Assembly: GCA_002721545.1 (NCBI GenBank)
Contig: PBKR01000011.1
Location: 1-64,000 of the forward strand
DNA: 64,000 bases
Direction of reading: 5' to 3'
Source: Nitrosomonadaceae bacterium
GTDB taxonomy: Bacteria; Pseudomonadota; Gammaproteobacteria; Burkholderiales; Nitrosomonadaceae
Shown: in pieces, positions 25,602 to 27,218 of the stretch
How the letters are laid out: each line of letters opens with the position of its first letter
How positions within the stretch are numbered: the first letter of the stretch is position 1
The notes under the pieces: generated by a model
What the model was told of the DNA's origin: nothing
The model's database searches: none
Seen by the model: only the letters and a program-made list of their open reading frames with translations
Made by a program: the position numbers and the translations under genes

Positions 25602-27218
25602 ATGCGAATTGCCATTGCCCAGATCAATTGTACAGTAGGTGACCTTACCGGTAATGCAAAGAAAATTCTTGATTTCACTAATCAGGCAAAAAACAAAGAT
25701 ACTGCATTAGTTATCACGCCTGAATTAGCCTTATCTGGCTATCCTCCTGAGGATTTATTGTTGCTAGATGGGTTTCGTCTGGCCTGCATAAAAGCATTTG
25801 ATAATCTAGTAAAAGAAATAAATGGGATTTCTCTATTATTAGGGCATCCTTATTTTATTAACAACCGTATTTATAATGCTGCTTCATTAATTTGTGATGG
25901 GAAGGTTGTTGCGACGTACTTTAAGAATAACCTTCTAAATGATAATTGGTTTACAGAGTCTTATTATTTTGAGGCTGGTTTAGACAGCTGTGTTTTCACT
26001 TCTGAGGGAATAAAATTTGGAATAAATATTTCTACTGATATATTGCAAGAAATTAATACAGTTGCTGTTAAAAGAGAGGGGGCAGAAGCATTAATATTAT
26101 TATGCGCTTCGCCTTATCACGTTAATAAGCAAGCTATATTGCATAATTTAATATGTCAACGCGCTCATAAAATAGGAATACCCATTATTTGTGTAAATTT
26201 AGTGGGAGGGCAGGATGAATTAGTATTTGATGGGGCTTCATTTGTAGTAAATTTTAAAGGGGACCTTATTCATCAATTTGATGGGTTTATTGAGACTCTA
26301 GGTTTGATTGAATTTCAAGGTGGCTTGCCTATGAAGGGGCTGGTTACTAATACAGATATTCAAGAAGAAAATATATACAGAGCTTTGTGTCTTGGAGTAA
26401 AAGATTATATTAATAAAAATGATTTTACTAATGTAATTCTTGGCATATCTGGGGGTATTGATTCTGCCCTTACATTAGCAATTGCAGTTGATGCCTTGGG
26501 TTCTGATAGGGTATGGGCAGTAATGATGCCGTCAGAATATACAGCAAGTATAAGCTTGCAAGATTCACGGGCTATATCTAAGGCTTTAGGTGTGAATTAT
26601 AGTGAATTTTCAATTAATACAATGTTTGATCAATTATTAAATTCACTTGTTAATAAATTTCAGTGGCCTCAAGATCAACATGAAATAGGAGTTACTGAAG
26701 AGAATATACAAGCACGAATTCGTGGAACTATCTTAATGGCATTATCAAATAAATATGGAGCAATTGTACTTACCACTAGTAATAAATCTGAAATGGTAAC
26801 AGGATATAGTACGCTTTATGGCGATATGGCTGGCGGGTTAGCTGTACTCAAGGATGTCAGCAAGAGTATGGTCTATAAGCTTTGTAATTACCGTAATAGT
26901 TTAAGTATGGTGATTCCAGAGCGTATCATTCAGCGTGCACCTTCTGCTGAATTGCGACCAAATCAGATAGATCAGGATAATCTCCCACCTTATAATATTA
27001 TTGATGGCATTATTGAGGAGTATATAGAGAATGGTAAATCACTATATGAGATAGTTGATATGGGCTATCCTAAGGCTGATGTGCGACATATCGTAAGTTT
27101 ACTCTGTAAGAATGAATATAAAAGGCGTCAATCACCCTTGGGAATTTGTATTACTAAACAAAGCTTTAGTAAGGGCTGGCGTTACCCAATTACATCTAAA
27201 TATAAAGACACGGTGTGA
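25602..27218 (+). CDS. nadE: NAD+ synthetase with glutaminase domain lacking the catalytic Cys
   Basis: NadE amidates nicotinic acid adenine dinucleotide to NAD+. The 538-residue protein has an N-terminal nitrilase-type glutaminase domain (1-250) and a C-terminal synthetase domain with the PP-loop GISGGIDSA (about 281-289). In the glutaminase domain Glu41 (TPELALSGYP) and Lys108 are kept. At the place of the family's ICED Cys nucleophile the sequence reads NISTD, with Ser144 (TCT, 26031-26033). Transfer of ammonia from glutamine should thus be lost or very weak, while the synthetase half looks complete. It lies 53 bases before glnB in the same direction, probably one transcript. Confidence 0.93.
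   Translation: MRIAIAQINCTVGDLTGNAKKILDFTNQAKNKDTALVITPELALSGYPPEDLLLLDGFRLACIKAFDNLVKEINGISLLLGHPYFINNRIYNAASLICDGKVVATYFKNNLLNDNWFTESYYFEAGLDSCVFTSEGIKFGINISTDILQEINTVAVKREGAEALILLCASPYHVNKQAILHNLICQRAHKIGIPIICVNLVGGQDELVFDGASFVVNFKGDLIHQFDGFIETLGLIEFQGGLPMKGLVTNTDIQEENIYRALCLGVKDYINKNDFTNVILGISGGIDSALTLAIAVDALGSDRVWAVMMPSEYTASISLQDSRAISKALGVNYSEFSINTMFDQLLNSLVNKFQWPQDQHEIGVTEENIQARIRGTILMALSNKYGAIVLTTSNKSEMVTGYSTLYGDMAGGLAVLKDVSKSMVYKLCNYRNSLSMVIPERIIQRAPSAELRPNQIDQDNLPPYNIIDGIIEEYIENGKSLYEIVDMGYPKADVRHIVSLLCKNEYKRRQSPLGICITKQSFSKGWRYPITSKYKDTV

Follow-up and report, generated by a model that had tools for sequence, protein, structure and literature searches.

In teaching, glutamine is presented as the nitrogen donor of nearly all amidotransferases. 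In glutamine-dependent NAD+ synthetases, the glutaminase triad is C-E-K, the nucleophile being Cys176 in Mycobacterium tuberculosis and Cys175 in human (PMC6946656). According to the relevant sections of PMC3376133, the characterised two-domain NAD synthetases accept ammonia besides glutamine, there is evidence for ammonia use in vivo by typical single-domain NAD synthetases, and the two-subunit NAD synthetases (types C and R) have a separate glutaminase gene that is either clustered or remote. Furthermore, the pairing of nadE with glnB, coding for PII, is already known, and PII relieves the NAD+ inhibition of Azospirillum NadE2 (relevant part of PMC7196632).

The NadE considered here is encoded in the window, i.e. 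the whole stretch of DNA that was analysed (64,000 nucleotides of a Nitrosomonadaceae bacterium). It is like the NadE2-Gln enzymes (NF010588; Burkholderia thailandensis 4f4h, Azospirillum brasilense NadE2) in length, domain order, fold, PP-loop, the Glu and Lys of the triad, and the glnB neighbour, but it lacks the catalytic Cys and Trp148, and its residues Arg516 and Gly523 are changed. With the single-domain, ammonia-dependent NadE of enterobacteria and archaea it shares the predicted donor, free ammonia, although it keeps a full glutaminase domain and its sequence groups with the glutamine enzymes. Judging from the structure entries, the NadE C176A mutant of M. tuberculosis (3sdb, 3seq, 3sez, 3szg) has lost the same catalytic position with the fold kept, a change that was engineered there, whereas it is natural and repeated in Nitrosomonadaceae.

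Results and discussion

The nadE gene and its product

The window lies on contig 11 in a genome of 2.0 Mb (37 contigs, completeness 99, contamination 7.5). Its nadE gene (Table 1) codes for a protein that matches NF010588 with 682 bits (cut-off 479) and NF010587 with 193.4 bits, under the cut-off of the latter (255); PF00795 is followed by PF02540, and NadE structures were matched, 4f4h being the top one by E-value (46% identity). Codons 141-147, at 26022-26042, are ATA AAT ATT TCT ACT GAT ATA (I-N-I-S-T-D-I), and alignment with the NadE of B. thailandensis (4f4h, 'VICEDVW'), that of Acinetobacter (5kha) and relatives places Ser144 in the column of the catalytic Cys. A preliminary description, made from the window alone, had claimed this replacement and had proposed the alignment with betaproteobacterial NadE, which bears it out; Glu41, Lys108 and the PP-loop, said to remain, are all present. 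Its motif, NISTDIL at 26022-26042, had the serine and the site right, but the letters were one codon off, NISTDIL being residues 142-148. The Trp of ICEDxW is Leu148 in the window protein and is kept in the congeners G001, G003, G004, G005 and G006. A sequencing error as the source of Ser144 could be ruled out, as the Ser is common to six species of the genus. No replacement Cys in register was found across the genus. The AlphaFold model has a mean pLDDT of 90.8, which points, with high predicted confidence, to a glutaminase domain that is present and folded despite the loss of its Cys.

The nadE gene adjoins the nitrogen sensor gene glnB, as had been noted, but this neighbour is not special, since, of 105 named or order-level loci, 89 had glnB directly behind nadE. 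In the genus of the window, glnB came after nadE in all six loci with room, and it was absent there in the loci of Nitrosomonas eutropha and Nitrosomonas stercoris.

Table 1. Features of the nadE region, with positions in the window
Feature	Positions	Strand	Basis
nadE, two-domain NAD+ synthetase, 538 aa	25602..27218	+	ORF; NCBIfam; Pfam; AlphaFold model
Nitrilase-type glutaminase domain, N-terminal, residues 2-234, predicted inactive	25605..26303	+	PF00795; model pLDDT 87-98
Glu41 codon, general base of the C-E-K triad, kept	25722..25724	+	Invariant in 125 aligned sequences
Lys108 codon, triad lysine, kept	25923..25925	+	Invariant in 125 aligned sequences
Ser144 codon TCT at the place of the catalytic Cys	26031..26033	+	Alignments
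Cys168 codon; mostly Asn or Ser in relatives	26103..26105	+	Alignment; Ser in congener G003, Asn in G006
Synthetase domain, residues 259-510	26376..27131	+	PF02540
PP-loop SGGIDS, residues 283-288	26448..26465	+	ORF translation, alignment
Cys516, C-terminal loop; Arg in 103/103 Cys-bearing rows	27147..27149	+	Alignment
Ser523, C-terminal loop; Gly in 101/103 Cys-bearing rows, Ser in the other two	27168..27170	+	Alignment
glnB (PII), start 57 bp past the last aligned nadE codon	27272..27610	+	ORF; ordinary neighbour

Distribution and independent loss of the catalytic cysteine

Among 125 Nitrosomonadaceae genomes searched, 109 contained a readable nadE of this type, giving 110 sequences (two from G105), two of them partial; the 16 uncounted genomes had no match (G007 and G108), a C-terminal remnant (G086), a remnant together with a NadE of ~700 aa (G025), or only the ~700-aa NadE (12 genomes). 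The Cys was absent from 20 of the 110 sequences, including 7/7 of the window genus (six Ser and one Gly at position 144). It was present in 9/9 sequences of a second group and 23/23 of a third, and the fourth held 58 Cys, six Gly, six Phe and one Tyr; from named members, the third and fourth groups were inferred to be Nitrosospira and Nitrosomonas, respectively. Named Cys-less strains are N. eutropha Nm24 (G013), N. stercoris KYUHI-S (G016), Nitrosomonas mobilis Ms1 (G071) and Nitrosomonas sp. PY1 (G022); Nitrosomonas oligotropha Nm75 (G074) has the Cys. For G016, the plasmid agrees at 100% with AP019756.1 of N. stercoris KYUHI-S across the 20 kb that were aligned. Outside Nitrosomonadaceae, the Cys was kept in 128 of 128 NadE sequences (15 + 96 + 17, the 96 being 104 rows minus eight Nitrosomonadaceae members, with a few of the 96 vaguely titled), which are mostly from the same order as the window and in which some species are possibly counted twice. 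In this sample, the sequence changes are confined to Nitrosomonadaceae, where they recur.

The window NadE was matched once per genome, both in its own and in the other Cys-less genomes, with the exception of the fragmented genome G067, which contains two pieces of one nadE gene. A compensating second NadE was not found in the Cys-less genomes, and the ~700-aa NadE was matched in none of them. The latter protein occurs in a number of genomes of the Nitrosomonas group, either beside the short NadE or replacing it, with ICED in 10/10 read. In the single-contig genome G100 of the same group, the NadE halves match C1:383060-383857 and 1617609-1618376, 1.2 Mb apart; this separation of glutaminase and synthetase halves may be genuine or stem from a faulty assembly.

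A NadE tree built from 123 rows, after removal of the columns flanking the site, gave four changes at the Cys site, as did a synthetase-domain tree of 44 thinned rows. The Cys-less clades are the window genus (7), clade A (N. eutropha, N. stercoris, N. mobilis and relatives, 8 rows) and clade B (PY1 and three others); the partial sequence of G067 resembles clade A and was omitted from the trees. AU tests on the synthetase domain, based on quick trees and with groups that were named once a tree was available, rejected a single Cys-less clade (p-AU 1.5e-130) as well as the union of clades A and B (p 3.5e-4). Clade A without G068, a genome that groups with this clade yet retains the Cys, was not rejected (p 0.354), and clade A may represent one loss or two. 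The Cys was lost at least three times independently within Nitrosomonadaceae. The question raised earlier of whether relatives also lack the Cys can be answered for the whole genus, and the trees and AU tests extend the loss beyond it, to sister lineages that dropped the same Cys on their own.

Decay and constraint of the glutaminase domain

Departures were scored at positions with a constancy of 98% or more in the other Cys-bearing rows. They amounted to 40/308 (13.0%) in the glutaminase and 31/637 (4.9%) in the synthetase domain of the window genus, 56/352 (15.9%) and 33/728 (4.5%) in clade A, and 20/176 (11.4%) and 5/364 (1.4%) in clade B, position 144 itself accounting for 7 glutaminase departures in the window genus, 8 in clade A and 4 in clade B. 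Eight Cys-bearing control clades showed 0-3.7% for the glutaminase and 0-2.5% for the synthetase domain, and the single row of G068 showed 6.8% and 4.4%. Median dN/dS values of near pairs (few pairs, no formal test) were, for the glutaminase domain, 0.18 in Cys-less and 0.098 in Cys-bearing members of the Nitrosomonas group and 0.163 in the window genus, and, for the synthetase domain, 0.084, 0.064 and 0.133, respectively; the excess of glutaminase over synthetase was weak in the window genus (median dN ratio 0.97). The glutaminase domain is still constrained, its dN/dS of about 0.16-0.18 being well under 1. In addition, of 19 Cys-less rows, seven had lost Arg516, namely the 7/7 of the window genus, and 12 had lost Gly523, again including 7/7 of that genus. 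The C-terminal loop of two-domain NadE contacts the glutaminase domain (PMC3376133, in the section concerned); by our own equation, the stretch of Arg516 and Gly523 would correspond to this loop, which is present in the window NadE, yet changed at residues 516 and 523.

The four replacements at position 144 (Ser, Gly, Phe and Tyr) are what decay would be expected to give, rather than a new nucleophile. Nevertheless, Glu41 and Lys108 were unchanged in all 125 aligned rows, including all 20 Cys-less ones, which is odd for a useless site and may mean either that the structure requires them or that a ligand pocket persists. Indeed, their retention, together with the fact that Ser is a possible nucleophile, favours a reading in which Ser144, or the nearby Cys168, serves as a substitute and glutamine is still hydrolysed, perhaps slowly; Cys168 occurs in 5/7 sequences of the genus and, in the model, would close the strand after the nucleophile elbow. 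However, the congener G003 has Ser at both 144 and 168, and G006 combines Gly144 with Asn168, by which Cys168 could be ruled out as the replacement. Moreover, position 144 is Gly, Phe or Tyr in the sister clades, of which Gly and Phe are unable to attack, Trp148 is gone from the window NadE, other glutaminase invariants drift, and the same kind of substitution, Cys to Ser or Ala, was made by crystallographers in the nitrilase fold (5h8k/5h8l C158S, 5nz5 C145S and 3sdb C176A, as given in the entries). Continued hydrolysis by a substitute is thus considered very improbable. We assign an equally small chance to a separate glutaminase protein that supplies the ammonia, like in the two-subunit Thermus enzyme (relevant section of PMC3376133). 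A stand-alone nitrilase-family protein of ~290 aa does occur in each of five Cys-less genomes examined, besides NadE and a ~510-aa protein, but this trio recurs in all five, across three clades, none of the ORFs flanking nadE (22-31 kb) resembles a glutaminase, and the dead domain remains fused to the synthetase. Besides NadE, the trio presumably comprises Lnt and a general small amidase.

A regulatory role of the dead domain, the pocket of which would bind glutamine or another ligand, or which would contact PII, and thereby tune the synthetase, is unlikely but deserves more weight. Invariant Glu41 and Lys108 and continuing purifying selection speak for it, as do the nadE-glnB pair in 6/6 readable loci of the genus and the relief of NAD+ inhibition by PII in a related NadE2 (part of PMC7196632); the residues kept may, however, be structural, and in neither the N. 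eutropha nor the N. stercoris locus does glnB adjoin nadE. Very probably, the window NadE is an ammonia-using NAD synthetase, derived from a glutamine-dependent type, of which the dead glutaminase domain was retained for structural reasons. In this scheme, the ancestor would be a dimeric, NadE2-type glutamine-dependent NAD+ synthetase of an ammonia-oxidising bacterium. With the nucleophile gone, the glutaminase half would be unable to hydrolyse glutamine, whilst the intact synthetase half would adenylate nicotinic acid adenine dinucleotide and free cytoplasmic ammonia would serve as the nitrogen donor; the glutaminase domain would probably persist in folded form, paired with the synthetase domain.

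Ammonia oxidation and ammonium supply

Two pieces of the hydroxylamine oxidoreductase gene (hao) were retrieved from the genome of the window, each cut by a contig end, and one of them is followed by an open frame that we take to resemble haoB. The amoA gene was not found in this genome but is present in three of seven congeners; multi-copy amo and hao genes often break assemblies. Because its genome carries hydroxylamine oxidoreductase, the organism of the window is, by gene content, an ammonia oxidiser, the kind of host in which the preliminary description had considered loss of the Cys tolerable; an intracellular organism, its other example, need not be invoked. Likewise, its suggestion that an enzyme devoid of glutaminase activity would use free ammonia is consistent with hao, the independent losses in sister lineages and the lack of an in-register Cys.

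The likely reason for the loss is that cells living on ammonia, mostly without GOGAT, would hold a pool of ammonium and could therefore do without the glutaminase. The reported ammonium tolerance is 1,000 mM for N. stercoris, 600 mM for N. eutropha and 100 mM for N. mobilis Ms1 (parts of PMC5118430 and PMC4567560), and for PY1 5.7 mM is listed, i.e. the concentration that stopped this strain (PMC10472526, in the part concerned). As the named Cys-less strains span the whole tolerance range, their common factor is ammonia oxidation and not a rich habitat. High ambient ammonium as a general cause is ruled out by PY1, which tolerates less than 6 mM; of the plentiful ammonium proposed earlier, the ammonia-oxidiser lifestyle fits, but a rich habitat is not needed. 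Similarly, the congener G001 is recorded as 'uncultured Nitrosomonadaceae bacterium RIS_SAG_02', and RIS single-cell genomes are from seawater beneath the Ross Ice Shelf (part of PMC12361377), which is apparently also its origin, judging from the record name. Against a simple relation with ammonium, neither PY1 nor RIS_SAG_02 is a high-ammonium organism, and 90 of the 110 Nitrosomonadaceae sequences, mostly from known or likely ammonia oxidisers, retain the Cys.

The large subunit of GOGAT (PF04898) gave no hit in 107 of the 125 Nitrosomonadaceae genomes, some of which are incomplete. It was unmatched in 19/20 Cys-less and 73/89 Cys-bearing genomes, and GOGAT loss as a direct cause was not significant (GOGAT in 1/20 versus 16/89, p 0.19). 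Since GOGAT is also missing from most Cys-bearing genomes, its absence belongs to the general background rather than being a specific cause. Ammonium would be assimilated by glutamate dehydrogenase.

Other glutaminases

The organism of the window is not a general loser of class I glutaminases, as its CarA, GuaA, PyrG, TrpG-like and HisH proteins keep the Cys. Its genome gave 11 matches with the class II glutaminase domain (PF13522), mostly in frames of ~610-700 aa, versus 3-6 in four relatives.

In N. stercoris, the loss goes further, a broader loss that is known from this one genome in a survey of CarA, HisH and TrpG in 27 genomes. Its CarA reads GIHLGYQ versus GICLGHQ and GQAET versus GHPEA, the catalytic Cys and His being gone, whereas Cys and GHPE were found in the CarA of 24/24 other genomes compared. 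HisH and TrpG were unmatched in N. stercoris among the 27 genomes searched; HisH was matched in 25/27 (split in G019) and TrpG in 24/27 (partial in G002 and G003), the other misses being the incomplete genomes G007 (both) and G067 (TrpG). The unaligned stretch between hisB and hisA measures 175 bp in N. stercoris versus 706 bp in N. eutropha, and that at the trpG site 171 bp versus 681 bp, with no credible remnant of hisH or trpG in either N. stercoris region compared with N. eutropha. Both genes are deleted in the finished N. stercoris genome, which retains hisB, hisA, hisF, trpD and trpC and of which GuaA, PyrG, PurL, PurF and GlmS keep the Cys. In general, HisF, TrpE and CarB have ammonia-dependent activity. 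The AsnB-like class II proteins of N. eutropha and N. stercoris start with MSGIAGF versus the Met-Cys-Gly of class II glutaminases, and are possibly another Cys-less glutaminase by their N-termini; they were kept out of the loss count. In the complete genome G019 of the Nitrosomonas group, hisH is split over two frames, due to a frameshift or a sequencing error.

Conclusions

The finding is widened from one gene to repeated loss in one bacterial family, with N. stercoris as the extreme case; the observation is confirmed and its interpretation supported, the glutaminase being predicted to be inactive and ammonia to be used in vivo. Among the matches listed, the titles and abstract openings of the open-access literature, which leaves subscription papers mostly outside, contained no description of NadE glutaminase loss in nitrifiers; missing glutaminase genes go unmentioned in the N. 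stercoris genome paper (PMC6706690), and the word Nitrosomonas is absent from PMC3376133. Automatic annotation may label such NadE proteins glutamine-dependent, as NF010588 accepts the window protein far over its cut-off. Repeated loss of the NadE nucleophile, once together with three other glutaminases, ties a change at the enzyme level to an energy lifestyle, and the hypothesis is testable in the cultured strains N. eutropha, N. mobilis, N. stercoris and PY1. It is an evenly balanced matter whether, in ammonia-oxidising bacteria, one enzyme after another is giving up glutamine as the universal nitrogen donor, NadE being the first and a repeated case and N. stercoris, which grows at 1,000 mM ammonium, the most advanced. 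If so, free ammonia would be the direct nitrogen source for NAD, carbamoyl phosphate, histidine and tryptophan in such cells, and the same syntheses would fail once cytoplasmic ammonium falls.
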